The position numbers and the translations under genes are program-made. The notes under the pieces were generated by a model. That model saw nothing but the letters and a program-made list of their open reading frames with translations. It was not told the origin of the DNA and did no database searches. Shown here piece after piece: positions 1 to 11,130 of a DNA stretch of 51,337 bases. Each line of letters starts with the position of its first letter. The first letter of the stretch is position 1. The stretch covers positions 1 to 51,337 of the forward strand of contig JAFTZJ010000025.1 of NCBI GenBank assembly GCA_017461045.1, written 5' to 3'. The DNA comes from Lachnospiraceae bacterium (GTDB lineage: Bacteria; Bacillota; Clostridia; Lachnospirales; Lachnospiraceae).

Positions 1-3000
1 GGAATGCACTTTTCAGATATTATTCCGGCTGGAATGGAATATGTTGATGGAAGTTTCTGTATTCAGAACCTTTGGGAGTGGAATGATGCAAACCGCGTTT
101 ATCTTGTACCGGTTGTTGGAAGTAATGGAGAAACCATTGCTTATGATTTCCAAACATCAGATGACCGTGTTGCACCTTTCTTGGCAAAATCTTTTCAAAT
201 TGTATACATTACGAAAATTACAGATGCAGATACAGGTGTTAAAAAGGATGCCTCTTTCACCAATAGTGCTAGCGTTACCGTTGATTTTGAAGGAGATATT
301 ACAGTAAAGGATACAGCCGTATCAACGGTAACTGGTACACCGGGTGGAACTCTCGACAAAGAATATAGCTATAAGCCGGGTACCGATTATGTAGATTGGA
401 CAGTTACCATTAATGAAGCACGTAACAACATGGAGGATATAGAAAATCCAATACTTAGAGATCAACTTGCAGAGTATTTTGATTATGTGTCCGGTACCTT
501 ATATCGCATGGATGCTGACGGTAATTTATCGGCGGTAACAGAACCATATTATGCAACCGCAATTAATAATCAATTGATAGTGCAGTTGCCGGATATCGGA
601 AGTGACTGTTTGGTATTTAAATTCCGTACACGCTTTAATGTATTGGCTGCAGAATTGATTGGGCAGAAGATTCAGAACTCAGTCACTTTGGAGGGCGTTG
701 GACATCTATATGAGAATCAGTCGAATGCAATTGAAAATGTTGCGTTTAGTTCTTCTTCGGCCGGTTCTTCTGTAAAACGTGAGATTCGTATAAAAAAGAC
801 AGACGCAAGTACAGGCAATCCTTTAGCCGGAGCAGAATTTGAATTGCTGTTAGGAACGGAAGTGATTGCAACAGCTGTATCAGGAGATGACGGATATGCA
901 GTGTTTGAAATCTCAGGTGCGGGACTTGATTTGTCACAAAATTATACTTTCAAATTAAAAGAAACAATTGCACCAGACGGTTATCAGGTCTCTGATACAC
1001 CACCGTCAGGTTATCAATACGATTCAAATAAAGCGATAATTATAAATGATTGTACGGAAGCAAATCTAAAAACAAGCACAGACGGAACAAAGTATTATGA
1101 ATTAGTTGTTCCGAATGCATCAATTAATGACTCTACAGAGATTATTATTCAGAAGAAGGATAATTCAACTCCGCAACTAGCGTTGCCGGGAGCTCTGTTT
1201 GGCTTGTATTCGGATTCAAACTGTACGAACTTAGTTGCGAAGAGAACTTCTGATGCAGAAGGTAAGGTGGTTTTCTCAGGTATCAAGATAGATGGAGATA
1301 CTGGCAACGCAACTTATTATGTGAAAGAAATTACTCCGCCTGCCGGATATAAAATCAATAATTCACTTGTAGAAGTGAGTATTAAAAAGAATGGTACAGG
1401 TATTTATGTTGTAACGTATTCCTTTGATGGAAATGTTGATCAGACAAGTTGTACCCTGATTGATGAGAAGGCATTGGGAACATACACTATTACAAAGACA
1501 GATACAAGTAGTCCGGCACAAGTATTACCGGATGCAGAATTTGGTTTGTATCGCGATGCATTATGTAGAGATTTAATTACAACTGTTACAACCGATGCTT
1601 CTGGTAAGGCAACATTTACAGATTTGGAATTGGGTAAAACTTATTATTACCGGGAAAGTGTTGCTCCGGATGGATATGTATTAGATTCAACAATTCGCTC
1701 CTTTGTAGTTGGAACCGGATTAGAGAATGATGATGTACATGATGAAATTACAATTACAAATGAGGCACAGGTTGGACGCATTGTTGTAACTAAGGTTGAC
1801 AATAATGTACCGGCAAAACCTTTAGCAGGTGTAGAATTTACATTGTATGAATCAACTGGCAATACACCGGTATCGATTCCGGGTGTAACGAATACTGTTA
1901 CAACAGATAGCTCCGGCATTGCAGTTTTCAATGATATTCCATTTGGTAAATACGTTCTAAAAGAAACAGATGGATTAGCCGGATATAAAGTGGCAGCTGA
2001 TCAAAATGTGATTGTAAATCAGCTTGATGATACAGAAATCACAGTTGTTAACGAAATTATTTATATTGATGTAGTAGTAAATAAAACAGATAATGCGTCG
2101 CCGGCACAACCATTATCCGGTGCAGTATTTGGATTGTATACAAGCAATGGCATATTTGTTCGTAGCGGTATAACCGATGAGAATGGATACTTAATTTTTA
2201 AGGATGTTCCGTATGGTGACTATTACTTGGAAGAGATGGAAGCTCCGGAAGGTTATACTAAGTGGACAGGTCGAGAAGGTATAAGTAAGACAGTTATTGA
2301 TGATAAAATTAGGTACTCACAACCACTTATATTTGAATATACGATTGAAAATGCAAAACAAAATGGAAGTATAGTAATTACAAAGGTTGATGATGTTAAA
2401 CCAAATCCAAATCCTGTAGCAGGCGCTGAGTTTATTCTGTACGACGAAAATATGTTAATCGTAGACCGAGCGTTTTCGGATACGGATGGTAAGATAACCT
2501 TCTCTGAATTGAAATATGGTACATATTATATTGAGGAGATTCAGGCTCCGGAAGGATATATTCGTGACACGGGTGTTTATAAGGTGGTTGTAAATTCGGA
2601 TACGCCGGTTACGAAACACGAATCTGGAACAACAGATAACGACAGTCTTACAATTGTCAATAAAAAGTTAGCAATCATTGCACCATTAATCAGTTTTAAG
2701 TTGAAAAAAGTTGATGAAAGTGGCAAACCGCTTGCGGATGCTGTATTTGAATTGTATGCAGATGGAGTAGGAACCGGTATAACTATGACAAGTGATGCAA
2801 GTGGCATGGTTTATTTCAGAAGAATTACAGTTACAGGCTATTCGGAAGATACAGTATTCTCAGTACGGGAAGTTTCTTCGCCGAGTGGATATACCATGGA
2901 TTCGGTAAATATTAATCTTGGAACAAGAGTTGAATCGCCATATGCGGATTCTGACGATGTAACCAAGTGGCTGTCAGATGCTGAAATTCGATGGGCTGGC

Positions 3001-6000
3001 GATGGAAGTGCAAGTAATGCTGAGATTGAAAATCAACAGATTCTTGGTAACATTTGGGTGACGAAAACTGGTTTGTTATCTACATTGTTGTTGCCGGGAG
3101 CAGAGATTACATTATATGAGGCAGATGGCATTACCCCGGTATCGATTACAGGTGTAACGAATCCGGTTGTAACGAACAATCAAGGTGTTGCAACATTTGC
3201 AAACTTGCCGATTGGTACATATTATGTAAAGGAAACAAAGGCGCCGGCGGGATATACCTTGAATACTACAGCACAAAAAGTTGTAGTCACAGAAAGTAAA
3301 ACTTACGAGGTGTCAATTAAAGATAGTCCAATTCTTGTATATGTAAGCAAGCAGAGTTTAACCGGTGTTACCGAATTACCGGGTGCGCAGATGTCGATTC
3401 GGAAAAACAGCCAGGATGGAACTATAGTTTATAGTTATACAACATCTGACACTGTTGAAAGAATTCCGGCATCATTATTAGAGACAGGAACAACCTATTA
3501 CATAGTCGAGGAACAGGCACCGAACGGTTACGGTTATATGGAGCCGGTTGGATTCACCGTTGCGAATGATGGTACAATCACTATCAGTGGTGGTGAATTG
3601 AAGGGTAATACCATTGTGGTGCGAGATCGAAAAATTGACTTAAGCATTAGTAAGCGCGACAGTGCGAACCAGACTAATGAACTTTCTGGTGCAATTTTTG
3701 GTTTGTATGATGAGAATGGAGTAGAAGTAGAACGCTTTACTTCCGGTACATCTGCTTATAATCTTACTGCTTTGGTAGCGCCAAAGAGCGGATATACACA
3801 GTATACAATTAAAGAAATCACTGCACCGGATGGATATGAAACGGCAGCACCGGTAAAGTTTGCTGTAAAATATGATGGAACGATTTATACTATAAATGAT
3901 GTCACAGGTGCCTATGAGCCAAAGGGTGAGATTACAATTCTTAATACGTTGAAGCCGTCATCAACGATTTATATACGAAAAATCGATGGTGTAACAGGCC
4001 TTGATTTGGGTGGAGCAGAATTTGTTATTAGAGATAATGAAGGAAATCCGTATGAATATGTTCGTTGGAGTTCTGATGGCACAGTTAAGAGTCTCCTTGT
4101 TGGTAATGGTGGAGAATTACTCCAGGATAAAGAATATAAATTGGTAGAAGTTAATGCACCAAAGGGATATCTTCCGGCAGAAGAAATTGTATTTGTTGTA
4201 GACTCTTCTGGAAAAATAAGTATTACGGAGGGTAATACGAATTGCCTGAATTATCAGAAGGATACAATTACAATTGAAAATTATAGTATTGCAGTGAATA
4301 TTCGTAAGCAAAACGGATTTGGTACCCTGTTAAAGGGAGCGAAACTTCGAATTGCAGAATACGATGTAGCGAATGGTGAGGTTGGTCCGACAATTTTTGA
4401 ATTTGAATCAAATAATTTGAACCCAACACTGGTTGATAATTCAGTATTAACGGAGAATAAGCGGCTTGTTGCAGGAAAAACATATGTATTACAAGAACTT
4501 GAAGCTCCGGATGGCTATCAGTTAGCTGATGATATTGTCTTTACAATCGGACTGGATGGTGTGATTACAAGAGTAGATGGTGTAGAAGTGCATGGTAATA
4601 CCATCGTAATGGAAGATGAAGAGGCAGGACTTGCAATCGGTAAGGTTTCATTAGAAGAGCAAGTAGGATTGGCAGGTTGTAAGTTGGAAGTTACAACGGT
4701 AGATGATCCGTATTTCCAGACAATGACTTGGGTAAGCGATGGAAAAACTAAGACTTGGGATTTCTTGACATTCACACCGGGATGTACATATGTATTGACT
4801 GAACTTGAAGCACCAGATGGTTATGCCTATACAGACCCAATTACATTCAAGATTGGTTTGGATGATAACAAGGTTTATATTGTTGAAGATGGAACTGAGA
4901 AGGCGGTTAAGGATCGTACAGTTTATATTGCTGATGGTATTTTGAAACTTTCAGTTGATAAATTGGATTCACTAGATAACACTTATGTAGAAGGAGCTAC
5001 GCTTGCAGTATTAGATTCTGCAGGTAATGAATGTGTACGGTTTACAACCGGCGATGGTCGGATTGATGTGGACACAAGTAAATTAATTGCAGGTAATGGT
5101 TATGTGACGGATGTTGATACGAATCCGGATGCAGTGAAGGAATATACGTTACGCGAGGTTGAAGCACCAGAATCCCACTATAAGGCAGTGGATATAAGGT
5201 TTGCAATAGATCGTGATGGACAGATATTTATCATTGAAGAACTCGCAGGAGTTAAGGATTACATTGCCGTAGATGAGAATCTTCTTACCATGTACGATGC
5301 ACCGAAGTTCTCTATTAGCAAGCAGGATATTGCCGGAGCAGAAGTGCCGGGAGCAACCATTACTATAACAACCACAGAAGATGACAACTTCCAGACCATT
5401 GAATTTGTAAGTGGTACCGTACCGAAGTATTTCGAAGATGGAACCTTTACACCGGGTATTACCTATACCTTAACTGAAACCAATGCACCGGATGGTTATG
5501 CATATGCAGAGAGCATTACCTTTAAGTTCGATGCGGATGGTAATCTGTTTATCAATGGTAAGAAATCCGATGGCAAACAGGTAGTTATGGTAGATAATGC
5601 ACTTGCTGTTATGATTAGCAAGCAGGATATCACCAATTCCAAGGAATTGGCAGGTGCGAAGCTGGTAATTAAGAATGAGGCCGGCGAAGTGATTCATAGC
5701 TTTGTTTCTACGAATACACCAACCTTATTACCGCATACATTATTTGTAGCACCGAAACCGGGCGAAATGTCATACTACTCCTTAACGGAATTAACGGCAC
5801 CGGATGGTTACGAAATTGCAGAAACCATATACTTTGCTTTGGATAGCAGCGGACAGGTTTATGTAAAGGGACCGGACGGAACCTATCAGTTAATGGATGA
5901 TAATACCGTAGTGATGTTTGATCAGCCGACCATTACCAGTGGCACCGGCATATCGAAGACACCATTAACGGGAGATCAGGTTCGAATGAAACTGGCAATC

Positions 6001-6066
6001 CTGTTAGGTATGATTAGTTTGTTTAGTGCCTTGGTATTAATTGAAAGAAGTATTTTTAAGAAGTAA
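1..6066 (+). CDS. Giant sortase-anchored SpaA/CnaB-repeat surface protein (5' partial)
   Basis: The reading frame is open to the window edge, so the true start and signal peptide lie upstream; about 2020 residues are visible. Residues 1-255 resemble the isopeptide-forming D2-type domains of Gram-positive adhesins. From about residue 258 there are 16 tandem SpaA/CnaB-like beta-sandwich domains. Each has a first-strand Lys (such as KKTD, SKQD), an E-box (such as KETKAPAGY, TELEAPDGY) and a closing Asn or Asp strand (such as TITNE, VMVDN), the expected triad for an intramolecular isopeptide bond. The C-terminus has a variant sorting signal, TPLTGD, then a hydrophobic stretch and the basic end RSIFKK, predicting covalent cell-wall attachment by sortase. 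The ligand is unknown. Early domains follow the short Cna-B pattern; later ones carry an extra strand with DGTI or DGVI. It could be a stalk protein or a pilus-like subunit; no sortase gene is in the window. Confidence 0.85.
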   Translation, partial: GMHFSDIIPAGMEYVDGSFCIQNLWEWNDANRVYLVPVVGSNGETIAYDFQTSDDRVAPFLAKSFQIVYITKITDADTGVKKDASFTNSASVTVDFEGDITVKDTAVSTVTGTPGGTLDKEYSYKPGTDYVDWTVTINEARNNMEDIENPILRDQLAEYFDYVSGTLYRMDADGNLSAVTEPYYATAINNQLIVQLPDIGSDCLVFKFRTRFNVLAAELIGQKIQNSVTLEGVGHLYENQSNAIENVAFSSSSAGSSVKREIRIKKTDASTGNPLAGAEFELLLGTEVIATAVSGDDGYAVFEISGAGLDLSQNYTFKLKETIAPDGYQVSDTPPSGYQYDSNKAIIINDCTEANLKTSTDGTKYYELVVPNASINDSTEIIIQKKDNSTPQLALPGALFGLYSDSNCTNLVAKRTSDAEGKVVFSGIKIDGDTGNATYYVKEITPPAGYKINNSLVEVSIKKNGTGIYVVTYSFDGNVDQTSCTLIDEKALGTYTITKTDTSSPAQVLPDAEFGLYRDALCRDLITTVTTDASGKATFTDLELGKTYYYRESVAPDGYVLDSTIRSFVVGTGLENDDVHDEITITNEAQVGRIVVTKVDNNVPAKPLAGVEFTLYESTGNTPVSIPGVTNTVTTDSSGIAVFNDIPFGKYVLKETDGLAGYKVAADQNVIVNQLDDTEITVVNEIIYIDVVVNKTDNASPAQPLSGAVFGLYTSNGIFVRSGITDENGYLIFKDVPYGDYYLEEMEAPEGYTKWTGREGISKTVIDDKIRYSQPLIFEYTIENAKQNGSIVITKVDDVKPNPNPVAGAEFILYDENMLIVDRAFSDTDGKITFSELKYGTYYIEEIQAPEGYIRDTGVYKVVVNSDTPVTKHESGTTDNDSLTIVNKKLAIIAPLISFKLKKVDESGKPLADAVFELYADGVGTGITMTSDASGMVYFRRITVTGYSEDTVFSVREVSSPSGYTMDSVNINLGTRVESPYADSDDVTKWLSDAEIRWAGDGSASNAEIENQQILGNIWVTKTGLLSTLLLPGAEITLYEADGITPVSITGVTNPVVTNNQGVATFANLPIGTYYVKETKAPAGYTLNTTAQKVVVTESKTYEVSIKDSPILVYVSKQSLTGVTELPGAQMSIRKNSQDGTIVYSYTTSDTVERIPASLLETGTTYYIVEEQAPNGYGYMEPVGFTVANDGTITISGGELKGNTIVVRDRKIDLSISKRDSANQTNELSGAIFGLYDENGVEVERFTSGTSAYNLTALVAPKSGYTQYTIKEITAPDGYETAAPVKFAVKYDGTIYTINDVTGAYEPKGEITILNTLKPSSTIYIRKIDGVTGLDLGGAEFVIRDNEGNPYEYVRWSSDGTVKSLLVGNGGELLQDKEYKLVEVNAPKGYLPAEEIVFVVDSSGKISITEGNTNCLNYQKDTITIENYSIAVNIRKQNGFGTLLKGAKLRIAEYDVANGEVGPTIFEFESNNLNPTLVDNSVLTENKRLVAGKTYVLQELEAPDGYQLADDIVFTIGLDGVITRVDGVEVHGNTIVMEDEEAGLAIGKVSLEEQVGLAGCKLEVTTVDDPYFQTMTWVSDGKTKTWDFLTFTPGCTYVLTELEAPDGYAYTDPITFKIGLDDNKVYIVEDGTEKAVKDRTVYIADGILKLSVDKLDSLDNTYVEGATLAVLDSAGNECVRFTTGDGRIDVDTSKLIAGNGYVTDVDTNPDAVKEYTLREVEAPESHYKAVDIRFAIDRDGQIFIIEELAGVKDYIAVDENLLTMYDAPKFSISKQDIAGAEVPGATITITTTEDDNFQTIEFVSGTVPKYFEDGTFTPGITYTLTETNAPDGYAYAESITFKFDADGNLFINGKKSDGKQVVMVDNALAVMISKQDITNSKELAGAKLVIKNEAGEVIHSFVSTNTPTLLPHTLFVAPKPGEMSYYSLTELTAPDGYEIAETIYFALDSSGQVYVKGPDGTYQLMDDNTVVMFDQPTITSGTGISKTPLTGDQVRMKLAILLGMISLFSALVLIERSIFKK

Positions 6067-6084
6067 TTCGTAGAATAATTACTT

Positions 6085-6114
6085 GCATGAAATAAGAACC
6101 CTTCTGCATATACT
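6085..6114 (+). promoter_or_regulatory. Candidate sigma-E-type promoter of spoIVA
   Basis: A GCATGAA element at 6085-6091 is followed, after 15 bases, by CATATACT at 6107-6114, which differs at one position from the sigma-E -10 consensus CATACAnT known from Bacillus. The -35 match to the KMATATT consensus is partial. Sigma-E control of spoIVA is established in B. subtilis. Initiation would fall near 6121, inside the loop of the 6097-6170 hairpin. Inferred, not proven. Confidence 0.45.
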
Positions 6115-6174
6115 GTATCAATGTATGATGTGAAAACACATAGCTATAGATACAGATATGCAGGAGGGTTTTTT
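6097..6174 (+). terminator. Long hairpin between adhesin and spoIVA, overlapping the spoIVA ribosome binding site
   Basis: Arms 6097-6119 and 6149-6170 pair over 22 bp with one bulged A (6112) and one G-U pair. A T-run follows at 6169-6174. The loop holds a smaller perfect stem, ATGTG/CACAT around AAAA. It looks like an intrinsic terminator for the adhesin gene. The 3' arm contains AGGAGG (6162-6167), the Shine-Dalgarno sequence of spoIVA, so the hairpin also masks translation on any read-through RNA. Confidence 0.75.
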
Positions 6175-7653
6175 ATGGACAATAATAGGGTAGGAACGTA
6201 TGATTTGTACGCAGATATGAAAGCCAGAACCAATGGGGAAGTGTATATTGGGGTCGTTGGCCCGGTTCGGACGGGGAAATCCACGTTTATTAAGCGGTTT
6301 ATGAATCTGATGGTGATTCCCAACATTGAAGAAGAACCGGTAAAGGTCAGGGCGAGAGATGAATTGCCAATGAGTTCTGCGGGGAAAACGGTTACCACAA
6401 CGGAGCCAAAGTTCATTCCTCAAGAGGCAGTAACCGTCAATGTAAATGACGAAGTAGAAATGAAGGTCCGCATGATAGATTGTGTGGGATTTATGGTGCC
6501 AGGGGCAGTAGGACATGAAGAAAATGGGGAAGAACGAATGGTGAAAACACCATGGTTCGATTATGAAATACCATTTACCAAAGCGGCAGAAATCGGAACC
6601 AGAAAGGTCATTCATGACCATTCTACCATTGGTATGGTAGTAACAACGGACGGAAGCTTTGGTGAACTGCCACGGGATGCATATATTGAGGCAGAACAGA
6701 GAACGATTCAGGAGATTCGGGGGTTAGGTAAACCATTTATTATATTATTAAACAGTGCAAAACCATATGCGAATGAAACTATGGATTTGGCAAAGGAATT
6801 GGAAACTGCATATGGTGTACGGGTATTACCAATCAATGCAGATCAATTGCGAAAGGAAGATATTACAGATATTCTCCAGGCGATTTTGTTAGAATTCCCT
6901 GTGGTTGAAGTGGATTTTCATATTCCCAAATGGGCAGAGGCATTGCAGTTGGAATCGGAAGTGAAGTCTGCTTTGGTATGCATGGCAAAAGAAATCATGA
7001 GTCAGGTTCATGTGGTAAGGGATGTGTATCATCTTAGTTTTCCTAGCAGTGAATACATAGAAAAAGTAAAGGTCGACGGAATTGCCTTGGACAGTGGCAA
7101 AGTAAATCTGATGATTTATGTGGATGATGCCTTCTATTATCAAATGTTAAGTACAATGCTGGGAGAAGCCGTAGAGAACGAATATCAATTCATGAAGGTG
7201 CTTCGGGAATTGGCTGAGAAGCGAAAGGAATATGAGCAGGTTGCGGCAGCACTGGAATCAGTGAAATATAAAGGCTATGGATGTGTTACACCGGCACAAA
7301 GCGATATTCGCATCGAGCAACCGGAAGTAATTCGGCATGGAAATAAGTTTGGTGTAAAAATCAAAGCAGAAGCCCCGTCGATTCATATGATTAAGGCCAA
7401 TATCACAACGGAAATCGCGCCGATTGTCGGAGCCGAGGAACAGGCAAAGGATTTGGTGCAATATATAGGCGAGGAAGGCCAGGAGGACATCTGGAATGTT
7501 AATATTTTCGGTAAAACCATTGAGCAGTTAGTGGAAGATGGTATCCGTACAAAAACCGGTAAAATTACGGATGAAAGTCAGATGAAATTGCAGGATACCA
7601 TGGAGAAAATCGTAAATGACGGTAATGGCGGAATGGTTTGTATTATTATTTAG
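6175..7653 (+). CDS. spoIVA: Stage IV sporulation protein A (spore coat morphogenetic ATPase)
   Basis: SpoIVA is the ATP-hydrolysing basement protein on which the spore coat assembles around the outer forespore membrane in the mother cell. The N-terminus has a Walker A motif, GPVRTGKST (residues 29-37), and the Walker B-like segment MIDCVGFM with Asp102. The C-terminus ends in the characteristic GGMVCIII, like the membrane-targeting tail of known SpoIVA. The start at 6175 is chosen over an in-frame ATG at 6121 because AGGAGG lies 7 bases before it and the resulting 492 residues match the length of the Bacillus protein. The start region is embedded in a long hairpin (see 6097-6174). Expression is probably mother-cell specific, which marks the organism as a spore former. 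Confidence 0.97.
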   Translation: MDNNRVGTYDLYADMKARTNGEVYIGVVGPVRTGKSTFIKRFMNLMVIPNIEEEPVKVRARDELPMSSAGKTVTTTEPKFIPQEAVTVNVNDEVEMKVRMIDCVGFMVPGAVGHEENGEERMVKTPWFDYEIPFTKAAEIGTRKVIHDHSTIGMVVTTDGSFGELPRDAYIEAEQRTIQEIRGLGKPFIILLNSAKPYANETMDLAKELETAYGVRVLPINADQLRKEDITDILQAILLEFPVVEVDFHIPKWAEALQLESEVKSALVCMAKEIMSQVHVVRDVYHLSFPSSEYIEKVKVDGIALDSGKVNLMIYVDDAFYYQMLSTMLGEAVENEYQFMKVLRELAEKRKEYEQVAAALESVKYKGYGCVTPAQSDIRIEQPEVIRHGNKFGVKIKAEAPSIHMIKANITTEIAPIVGAEEQAKDLVQYIGEEGQEDIWNVNIFGKTIEQLVEDGIRTKTGKITDESQMKLQDTMEKIVNDGNGGMVCIII

Positions 7654-9237: not shown

Positions 9238-9304
9238 GTCTATATTAAGTATGAAATGCGGAATTCAAACAAATGATTGAATTGTGCACGAAAGGGGAAG
9301 TAAC

Positions 9305-10237
9305 ATGAAAGAACAATGTATGATTTGTGGCTCTATGGTTGAAGATGTATCGGGGATTTGTCCGGTTTGCGGAGCGGTATTAGGTCGTAGCACACAGGTG
9401 AATCCGGCGAATATGAATTATGGAGGAGCAACCGAACAACCACAGGGCGTTATGGGTGGTGGCTCAGTATATCAGAATCCAAATATGGGATACAACCAAG
9501 GCGGATACAATCAGGACGGATATAATCAGGGAATGTACAATTATCAGGACGCTCCAACTTATGTACAACCGGCAGGAAAGAAAGGTATGGTTTTAAGTAT
9601 TCTTTCTCTGGTATGCGCAATCATTGGCGTATTGCTGATTTGTTTCCCATTCTTTTCAGCAGTATTTTGTCTGGCTTCCATTATTTTAGGAATTATTGCA
9701 CTGATTAAGAAACAGAAAAAAGTACCGGCAATTATTGGTTTAATATTCGGTGGTATCGGCGGTATCATTTGTGTATTCACCTTATACATAAACCTAATGA
9801 TAGCTTCAGTGTGCGGAACGACCTTTAATGGTCTTATCAAGCAAAGCTTTGAAGTAGTTGGTGAAGGTTCAACAGAAATTACAGGCGTTATGATTGAACT
9901 TCCAACAGACTCAGGCTATGAGGTGGTAGCGTTGAATTCGGATGGTTCCTTCCAGGCAACCGGTTATTCCGGATATTATTACAACCATAGTTATGCAAAT
10001 GAATACACCCGTGATTATATGGATTATCAGACATTATATGCTATGTCACAGGGATATCGGATGAAGGATGTTACCATGATAGAATTGTATTCCGAGTATG
10101 GTTCTGAGTATTATGTGTTTGTAGTTCCGGAAGGTTGGGAACAGGGTGATGTGATTTACTATGTTGAAATGACCGGTTCCGGAGATATGGACTATACATT
10201 GCAGCCGGTATTAACCGTACCGAATGTACTTGAGTAA
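9305..10237 (+). CDS. Zinc-ribbon membrane protein with Tyr/Asn/Gln/Gly-rich linker
   Basis: Function unknown. The 310-residue product begins with a small zinc ribbon (Cys5, Cys8, Cys19, Cys22). A low-complexity linker follows (about 35-90) with repeated GYNQ units. Three hydrophobic segments, about 94-115, 117-134 and 141-165, resemble DUF4190-type proteins. The C-terminal domain of about 145 residues is probably extracytoplasmic and rich in Tyr, Gly and acidic residues. The start at 9305 is preferred to an in-frame ATG at 9284 because AAAGGGG lies 8 bases before it. The layout suggests a cytoplasmic sensor or partner-binding ribbon tethered to the membrane; this is inference. It has its own promoter and ends just before the LytM peptidase leader. 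Confidence 0.8.
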   Translation: MKEQCMICGSMVEDVSGICPVCGAVLGRSTQVNPANMNYGGATEQPQGVMGGGSVYQNPNMGYNQGGYNQDGYNQGMYNYQDAPTYVQPAGKKGMVLSILSLVCAIIGVLLICFPFFSAVFCLASIILGIIALIKKQKKVPAIIGLIFGGIGGIICVFTLYINLMIASVCGTTFNGLIKQSFEVVGEGSTEITGVMIELPTDSGYEVVALNSDGSFQATGYSGYYYNHSYANEYTRDYMDYQTLYAMSQGYRMKDVTMIELYSEYGSEYYVFVVPEGWEQGDVIYYVEMTGSGDMDYTLQPVLTVPNVLE

Positions 10238-10250
10238 TAATTAACTTTAT

Positions 10251-10280
10251 GAATGAAGAGATGCCTCCTTTGCATAAATT
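10251..10280 (+). promoter_or_regulatory. Candidate sigma-E-type promoter of the LytM peptidase
   Basis: GAATGAA at 10251-10257, then 15 bases, then CATAAATT at 10273-10280, one mismatch from the sigma-E -10 consensus. Element sequence and spacing closely match the candidate upstream of spoIVA (GCATGAA, 15 bases, CATATACT). Initiation near 10287 would remove the hairpin's left arm. Chance matches are possible in AT-rich DNA. Confidence 0.35.
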
Positions 10281-10299
10281 GTGCAGAGGAGGTATTTTT
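10261..10299 (+). terminator. Hairpin overlapping the LytM peptidase ribosome binding site
   Basis: Arms 10261-10274 and 10282-10295 pair over 14 bp (two G-U pairs) around a 7-base loop and are followed by a T-rich run. The 3' arm contains AGGAGG (10287-10292), which sits 7 bases before the ATG at 10300. It is terminator-like for the upstream gene and masks the ribosome site on read-through RNA. Confidence 0.7.
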
Positions 10300-11130
10300 A
10301 TGGTTCAGCAAAATCAAATATGGACATATATAGGAAGAGAAGTCATGCGATACATACTTGCGATTGCCTTGCTTATGGTCTGTATAATTGTGGAATGGCA
10401 GGCGGTAGACCGCTTAACAATACAGGCCTATCAAGTACGCTATACAAGTGCTTTAGAGAGGTTTCGAGGCGAACCGTATATTTATAATAATCGCAGAACG
10501 GATAAATATTTGGATACATATGAGATGGAATTTCAGCAAATCATAGCAAATATTACAGAAGAAATCAGATGTTTTCCGGTTGAGAAATCCTATATACAGG
10601 AAATTAATTATGTGGATTCCTGGTATGGGGAACGGACCTATGGGGGAGAACGCAAGCACGAGGGAACAGATATTATGGCAAATTCCAACATAGCGGGTGA
10701 AATTCCTATTGTAAGCATGACGGATGGAGTGGTAAAGAATCTCGGCTGGTTGCGTTTGGGGGGCTGGCGAGTGGGAATTGAATCCGATTCCGGAGTATAT
10801 TACTATTATGCCCATTTGGATTCTTATGCCCCCAATCTTCAAATCGGTAATCCGGTATATGCAGGTCAATTACTTGGCTTTATGGGAGATTCCGGCTATG
10901 GAGAAGAAGGGACTACCGGAATGTTTCCGGTACATTTGCATTTGGGAATATATGTTTATGATTCAAATGGAACGGAAATCAGCCTGAATCCGTATCCGAT
11001 TCTAACGTATTTTGAGGATTCTCATGGGATTCTGTCCGGAAATAATGAAAAATGTTGGAAAATCGGGCTTTTCCATAGATTTTTCATGGGTAATCCGTTG
11101 GAATTTTCTAGGAAATATGCTATACTATAA
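10300..11130 (+). CDS. Membrane-anchored M23 (LytM-type) metallopeptidase
   Basis: A probable peptidoglycan endopeptidase of 276 residues acting outside the membrane. One N-terminal transmembrane segment (about residues 16-33) is followed by a stalk and then the LytM domain. The zinc site looks intact: His120 and Asp124 in KHEGTD, and His212 and His214 in VHLHLG; YYAHLDSY is also present. It may therefore be active, unlike SpoIIQ- or SpoIVFA-type relatives that lost zinc ligands. The start at 10300 (AGGAGG, 7 bases) is preferred to an unsupported ATG at 10249. The leader architecture and sigma-E-like promoter shared with spoIVA suggest a sporulation role; that is inference. The last codons overlap the promoter of the next gene. 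Confidence 0.88.
   Translation: MVQQNQIWTYIGREVMRYILAIALLMVCIIVEWQAVDRLTIQAYQVRYTSALERFRGEPYIYNNRRTDKYLDTYEMEFQQIIANITEEIRCFPVEKSYIQEINYVDSWYGERTYGGERKHEGTDIMANSNIAGEIPIVSMTDGVVKNLGWLRLGGWRVGIESDSGVYYYYAHLDSYAPNLQIGNPVYAGQLLGFMGDSGYGEEGTTGMFPVHLHLGIYVYDSNGTEISLNPYPILTYFEDSHGILSGNNEKCWKIGLFHRFFMGNPLEFSRKYAIL
11098..11126 (+). promoter_or_regulatory. Sigma-A promoter of the alarmone synthetase gene
   Basis: TTGGAA at 11098-11103 and TATACT at 11121-11126 are 17 bases apart, with a TGC extended -10. The promoter lies within the last codons of the M23 peptidase gene, about 65 bases before the start at 11192. Confidence 0.65.

Follow-up and report, generated by a model that had tools for sequence, protein, structure and literature searches.

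Sporulation genes have to stay silent during growth and come on in a single cell at a single time, although they lie downstream of unrelated genes. How such control could be achieved is the question raised by the spoIVA locus of a Lachnospiraceae bacterium (GenBank assembly GCA_017461045.1, contig JAFTZJ010000025.1, positions 1 to 51,337), where spoIVA follows a pilin-like adhesin ORF that is read in the same direction. The whole stretch of 51,337 nucleotides that was analysed is referred to here as the window. The features around the spoIVA start are the following:

4..6066, + strand: upstream adhesin/pilin-like ORF, cut by the left edge of the window (SpaH/EbpB pilin model NF033902, E 2e-56); possible source of read-through
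6087..6091, + strand: candidate -35, ATGAA, 20 nt before CATA; spacing shared by 5 of 6 close relatives
6094..6119, + strand: left arm of the hairpin, by folding; predicted to be confined to read-through RNA
6107..6114, + strand: sigma-E-like -10, CATATACT, within the left arm
6121, + strand: transcription start predicted by a position rule, 7 nt past the -10
6149..6173, + strand: right arm of the hairpin, by folding
6162..6167, + strand: Shine-Dalgarno (SD) sequence AGGAGG, inside the right arm
6169..6174, + strand: T-run TTTTTT, putative terminator tail and spacer before the start codon; terminator score d = 13.6
6175..7653, + strand: spoIVA, with ATG at 6175 (TIGR02836, 629 bits against a cut-off of 460, E 5e-189)

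Between the adhesin stop (6066) and the spoIVA ATG lies an inverted repeat, 6094-6119/6149-6173, of 25 pairs with one unpaired base. The RNA of 6085-6200 has a minimum free energy of -42.7 kcal/mol, against -19.45 ± 2.9 for 200 shuffles, none of which was as stable (z -8.0). A sequence-only reading of this DNA had described a 22-bp stem (6097-6119/6149-6170) that includes AGGAGG and a T-run and carries a sigma-E-like -10 in its left arm; its coordinates proved right, the 22 pairs being the core of the longer stem, and CATATACT is located at 6107-6114 as described. In the window, a stable G+C-rich stem is directly followed by a T-run, as in an intrinsic terminator, and folding pairs the SD with upstream sequence in the manner of T4 gene e and I-TevI. 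The predicted probability that AGGAGG is unpaired is 0.0005 in read-through RNA and 0.88 in an RNA that begins at 6121. A search of 5900-6400 against Rfam returned no family at gathering score, the nine microRNA matches and one sRNA match all lying far below it and being attributed to chance. The predicted start at 6121 also falls on an ATG in the spoIVA frame (reading frame of 510 aa), a coincidence that is probably accidental.

We consider it highly probable that this leader is a nested insulator, in which one repeat combines a terminator, a mask over the ribosome site and a sigma-E promoter. For polymerase coming from the upstream gene, the repeat would act as an intrinsic terminator; in read-through RNA that escaped termination, it would mask the spoIVA ribosome site; and the same repeat would seat the spoIVA sigma-E promoter. 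Because the -10 lies within the left arm, mother-cell RNA would begin past that arm and be unable to fold the hairpin, and translation could proceed. Vegetative expression of a spore-coat gene would then be blocked by the very bases that serve its proper expression.

The simplest alternative is that a pyrimidine-rich promoter spacer happens to pair with a purine-rich ribosome site, and related leaders bear directly on it. A search of 200 genomes from the window's family gave 135 with spoIVA; 130 of them were read, as 30 loci and 100 stretches, and five were left out, one lying near a contig start and the others being broken or partial; 43 spoIVA loci from named genomes were also included among the leaders. 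With L023 removed for its short upstream region, 172 leaders were usable, and dropping 18 near-identical ones left 154. Setting aside 13 of these, judged from titles and identity to lie outside the family, gave 141, which include a few records of other families by title (e.g., L021 and L037).

A hairpin (stem score of at least 18) was present in 105 of the 141 distinct leaders from Lachnospiraceae and near kin (74.5%), against 16.9% with the upstream halves shuffled and 39.4% with them swapped between genomes. Since 17% of shuffles and 39% of swaps also pass this threshold, some of the hairpin calls are due to chance, and the rate among swapped halves is what chance pairing has in its favor. 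At a score of at least 24, however, stems were found in 56% of the leaders, against 11.5% of swapped and 0.6% of shuffled ones. The same contrast was seen in pairing energy, where the arms of 154 leaders had a mean of -18.2 kcal/mol with their own partners and -12.46 ± 0.25 kcal/mol when swapped between genomes; the best of 2000 arm permutations reached -13.3 kcal/mol, short of the mean for own arms. For the leader set as a whole, the permutation, swap and shuffle controls refute chance pairing, to which we give almost no credence.

The letters of the design vary across genomes, with CCTCC/GGAGG, CCCCC/GGGGG and CCCCTTCC/GGAAGGGG among the arm pairs, and in close relatives of the window the arms switch jointly, for example from CTG/CAG to CCG/CGG. 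The sequence-only reading had proposed that relatives be compared for compensatory changes in both arms, and by this comparison the arms of the 154 leaders indeed appear to change together. In an alignment (A1) of 54 leaders, taken from 78 that had been picked for a stem of at least 20 and a compact loop, two-sided changes occurred in 25 cells, against 8.4 in shuffles, with all five core pairs affected, and the covariation score was 0.453, against 0.362 ± 0.022 in shuffles. The number of pair types in these 54 leaders was not above that of shuffles (78 of 500 reached it), and a two-column shift of the partner gave 22 both-sided cells, close to the observed 25; the counts on this alignment lean towards pairing because its rows were picked for good stems. 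As far as comparison reaches, the structure and its covariation are established.

This variability also speaks to the possibility that a spoIVA regulator uses the palindrome as its DNA operator. An operator would be well placed in a palindrome that overlaps the -10 region, but the arm sequences vary widely between genomes while pairing is kept, and the presence of the palindrome follows the orientation of the neighboring gene. The operator reading was rejected on these two grounds, and we regard it as very improbable.

Beyond the family, the element thins with taxonomic distance. Stems of at least 24 were found at 6 of 26 loci from other families of the order and at 2 of 28 loci from other orders of the class, and stems of at least 18 at 13 of 26 and 7 of 28, respectively. 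Many spoIVA leaders have AAGGGGGT as the SD in place of AAGGAGGT, where G-U wobble permits a left arm made of a C-run. A strict search pattern, CCTCCNGCATA...GGAGG, had matches in 29 of 120 genomes, mostly at non-spoIVA sites devoid of the hairpin design, and was set aside.

The nested-insulator reading requires a promoter whose RNA omits the left arm. The sigma-E consensus consists of a -10 of the CATAnnnT kind and a -35 that has ATA as its core and lies at a fixed distance, and CATATACT at 6107 in the window is a -10 of this kind. When the -10 of each leader was taken as the best match to CATATACT, CATA was present in 104 of the 105 strong hairpin leaders, mostly about 8-14 nt after the left-arm start. 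For 104 of the 105, the predicted start (7 nt past the -10) lay downstream of the left arm, so that, as with T4 e and I-TevI, the native promoter is placed such that its RNA would omit the 5' arm. At 71 of 159 loci, ATA stands exactly 19 nt before CATA, against a background of 2.6% per position, and it is the commonest -35 core; the window's own -35 (ATGAA, 20 nt before CATA) deviates from it. The promoter geometry is thus documented by comparison, and the ATA/CATA spacing fits a sigma-E -35/-10 pair. Sigma-E is the putative sigma factor, and in the window transcription is predicted to start at 6121. As the left arm fills the promoter spacer and often includes the -10 too, it should be absent from native RNA. 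Folding of the 130 codirectional loci with a hairpin predicts a median SD exposure of 0.003 in read-through RNA and 0.54 in native RNA, with the SD more exposed in the native RNA at 128 loci and exposure in read-through RNA below 0.05 at 90.

If the hairpin is a guard against read-through, it should persist only at loci whose upstream gene points toward spoIVA. That gene's orientation was taken from our own codon-bias caller rather than from annotation, and the hairpin threshold of 18 was fixed on the first set before orientation was examined and kept for the second. In the first set, the hairpin was present at 101 of 126 codirectional and 1 of 10 divergent loci, and at 3 of the 5 loci with no upstream gene called. 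The second set was formed from the 60 best-scoring of about 69 new genomes among the matches listed (257 with spoIVA), 10 of which were dropped as near-identical; with the same scoring and threshold, its 50 distinct loci showed the hairpin at 29 of 41 codirectional and 1 of 9 divergent loci. When the five loci with no called upstream gene are excluded, the two sets together give 130 of 167 codirectional against 2 of 19 divergent loci (Fisher p 1e-8), the distribution expected of an intrinsic terminator, which would be present where transcription arrives from upstream. A T-run (at least 5 T in the last 10 nt) was found at 114 of 167 codirectional and 4 of 19 divergent loci; both hairpin and T-run are therefore missing from most divergent loci in this comparison.

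Shared ancestry was taken into account on a spoIVA tree, where ten supported independent pairs differed in the expected direction in 7.5 cases and in the opposite direction in 0.3, with no difference in 2.2 (median p 0.016, range 0.004-0.22). On this tree the hairpin state changed 42 times and orientation 16 times, which indicates either a labile hairpin or noise in its calling. L327, which is divergent, and its close counterpart L095 are almost identical in the ribosome-site half and share AACAAGGGGGTATT, but the pyrimidine left arm is gone from L327. Orientation-dependent loss of this kind amounts to a natural experiment that supports insulation.

The sequence-only reading had expected the stem to be kept wherever spoIVA and its ribosome site are kept. 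The stem is lost from 17 of 19 divergent loci that retain both, a loss that insulation predicts; its absence from 37 of 167 codirectional loci runs against the expectation, and 11 of these 37 have a separate terminator. Among codirectional loci, the hairpin was present at 126 of 152 without a separate terminator and at 4 of 15 with one (p 1.2e-5), or at 69 of 89 and 4 of 15 when only loci with room for another terminator are counted; the separate-terminator cut-off, like the stem threshold, is our own. That so few hairpins remain behind another terminator suggests that termination is probably the main role under selection and masking a second layer.

These data bring two partial readings into play. 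First, the hairpin could be nothing but the upstream gene's intrinsic terminator, one that overlaps the promoter and the ribosome site to save space, and masking would have no role of its own. That the hairpin tracks codirectional upstream genes and is often absent behind another terminator would follow from such a reading, as would the co-occurrence of T-run and hairpin, the latter being present at 104 of 114 codirectional loci with at least 5 T and at 8 of 22 with 2 or fewer. However, the SD lies in the right arm near the start codon with a predicted exposure of 0.003, and hairpins, chance stems included, persist at 26 of 53 codirectional loci with 4 T or fewer. We consider termination as the sole role rather unlikely.

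Second, the hairpin could terminate nothing and serve solely to mask the ribosome site, as at T4 gene e. Masking is strong in silico, as the 90 of 130 loci with exposure below 0.05 indicate, and a strict terminator score (d > 0) was reached by few leaders, 29 of 154, and by none of 154 control starts that had been chosen mechanically. A pure mask does not predict, however, that the T-run should go together with the hairpin at divergent loci (4 of 19 against 114 of 167), nor that the hairpin should so often be gone where a separate terminator stands, and masking as the sole role seems improbable. The claim of double insulation, in which read-through is terminated or masked and native RNA is free, thus appears to hold up in both halves by comparison.

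Insulation by a leader of this kind has precedents. In the fold-back of IS10, transposase translation is inhibited in RNA that reads through from outside, and native RNA is unmasked; IS10 is a mobile element, and its likeness to the spoIVA leader lies in outside RNA being masked and native RNA not. In phage T4, the ribosome sites of e (lysozyme), soc, 49 and I-TevI are sequestered in early read-through RNA, and at e and I-TevI the 5' strand of the hairpin contains or adjoins the late promoter, whose RNA lacks that strand, according to the available portions of the accounts (PMC3014915, PMC2988022). To that extent, T4 e and I-TevI share with spoIVA a later-sigma promoter in or next to the left arm, a masked long RNA and a free short one, and similar leaders are predicted for gene e in related phages, as across spoIVA relatives. 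T4 is a phage, whereas the spoIVA hairpin belongs to a bacterial developmental regulon; the available portions of the T4 accounts mention a terminator for mobE but none where the ribosome-site hairpin is itself the terminator, and they draw no link to upstream orientation.

A sporulation gene provides a closer parallel. For sigG (spoIIIG) of B. subtilis, a hairpin of at least 20 bp has been proposed to prevent the translation of RNA that reads through from spoIIGA-sigE and does not form in the RNA of sigG's own promoter, as described in the available part of that account (PMC5942855). Common to sigG and spoIVA, on this description, are a sporulation gene, read-through from an upstream operon and a hairpin in the long RNA alone. 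The sigG case concerns sigma F/G and one locus, and the available part does not mention a terminator; the present case concerns a sigma-E-like promoter and several sporulation genes, family-wide. The hairpin described here is not the sigG hairpin, since the window gene is spoIVA behind an adhesin-like ORF and not sigG behind spoIIGA-sigE. Given T4 e, I-TevI and sigG, the logic of insulation is already known. Intrinsic terminators likewise place a G+C-rich stem and T-run between codirectional genes but, unlike ordinary ones, the spoIVA stem holds the -10 and SD of the next gene, whose start spacer is the T-run. In the literature searched, which lay mostly outside subscription journals, we found neither the fusion to a terminator whose tail is the start spacer nor its occurrence at several sporulation genes across a whole family; dependence on the orientation of the neighbor was found neither there nor in the available accounts of the earlier single-locus cases.

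The window itself holds a second copy. A scan of both strands for SD-like motifs at ORFs of at least 60 aa, excluding the first 110 bases of each strand, yielded just two starts with a stem of at least 20, spoIVA (6175) and 10300. The features of the latter are:

9284..10237, + strand: codirectional ORF upstream of the second hairpin
10258..10276, + strand: left arm of the second hairpin, 19 pairs; RNA-model match E 7.5e-4
10273..10280, + strand: sigma-E-like -10, CATAAATT, at the hairpin tip
10280..10298, + strand: right arm of the second hairpin, with AGGAGG at 10287-10292 and a T-run at 10295-10299
10300..11130, + strand: M23 peptidase gene (PF01551, E 2e-14), behind the second hairpin

This hairpin has GAGATGCCTCCTTTGCATA before the loop and AGGAGGTATTTTT after it. 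The stem is kept with compensating changes in all four close relatives where the M23 gene was found, and the T-run in three of the four, L014 being the exception. The position rule used for spoIVA would place the start at the SD itself (10287), with a tight leader of about 13 nt.

A covariance model built from the 54 aligned spoIVA leaders was run over 60 family genomes. Among the 20 strongest non-spoIVA matches (the window's own and a reverse-strand duplicate excluded), 19 had a stem of at least 20 and nine precede sporulation families, namely SpoIIID (two), SipL (one), SpoIIM (one) and SpoIID (five, all of which score below the SpoIID equivalog cut-off, with E 1e-35 to 3e-62, and above that of the SpoIID/LytB domain). 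The other 11 include a VanY peptidase, a YdcZ-like exporter, a ClpP-like protein, enolase, unnamed proteins and one without a long frame. spoIIID leaders reached a score of at least 18 in 18 of 30 cases (33% swapped, 17% shuffled) and of at least 24 in 13 of 30 (7.7% swapped, 0.3% shuffled), with no clear effect of orientation on the spoIIID hairpin (14 of 20 codirectional, 3 of 5 divergent and 1 of 5 with no gene called). A stem of at least 18 was found in 9 of 30 spoIID leaders, for which starts were chosen with tblastn; spoIIIAA and spoIIP loci were excluded from all counts. The design precedes spoIVA, the M23 peptidase gene and some spoIIID, spoIID, sipL and spoIIM genes.

How generic its parts are can be read from a 400-kb sample, made up of 19 stretches of one complete relative, whose own spoIVA has a stem score of 16.6, and one stretch of the window's own genome. 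Of 760 candidate starts with an SD-like motif, 92 had a stem of at least 20, and eight of these (two being starts of one ORF) had at least 5 T. As CATA is present at just one of the eight, the full combination is not generic; stems alone are common on this score.

We lean toward a regulon-wide rule in the Lachnospiraceae, a family rich in gut species, by which many sigma-E genes behind unrelated genes would use one element with shared terminator, promoter and ribosome-site bases, silent in outside RNA, open only to its own sigma factor, and coming and going with the orientation of the neighbor. If this is true, a reusable two-level read-through insulator that the right sigma factor bypasses would explain the control that these genes need. 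Testable predictions about such an element can be drawn from sequence alone; it could flag probable mother-cell genes in gut bacteria that are not in culture, and it represents a compact part for synthetic circuits.

Other starts show related arrangements. At 33720-33420 of the window, on the minus strand, a membrane-protein gene that we take to resemble ylbJ has a sigma-E-like CATATATT, and the promoter is preceded by a conventional terminator (GGGCATTTTAAATGCCC TTT) that is separate from it, not fused. In another stretch of the window's own genome (L511, 10660-10740), a spoIIIAA-like start has a short stem, CCTTTC/GAAAGG, around CATATATT and lacks a T-run. Enolase, a vegetative gene, also lies behind a stem and T-run over the ribosome site (L430, 1480-1550). 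Near 12065 of L501, on the minus strand, a stem and T-run cover a ribosome site; CATA is absent there and the loop contains TATAAT, possibly a vegetative promoter nested in the same manner.
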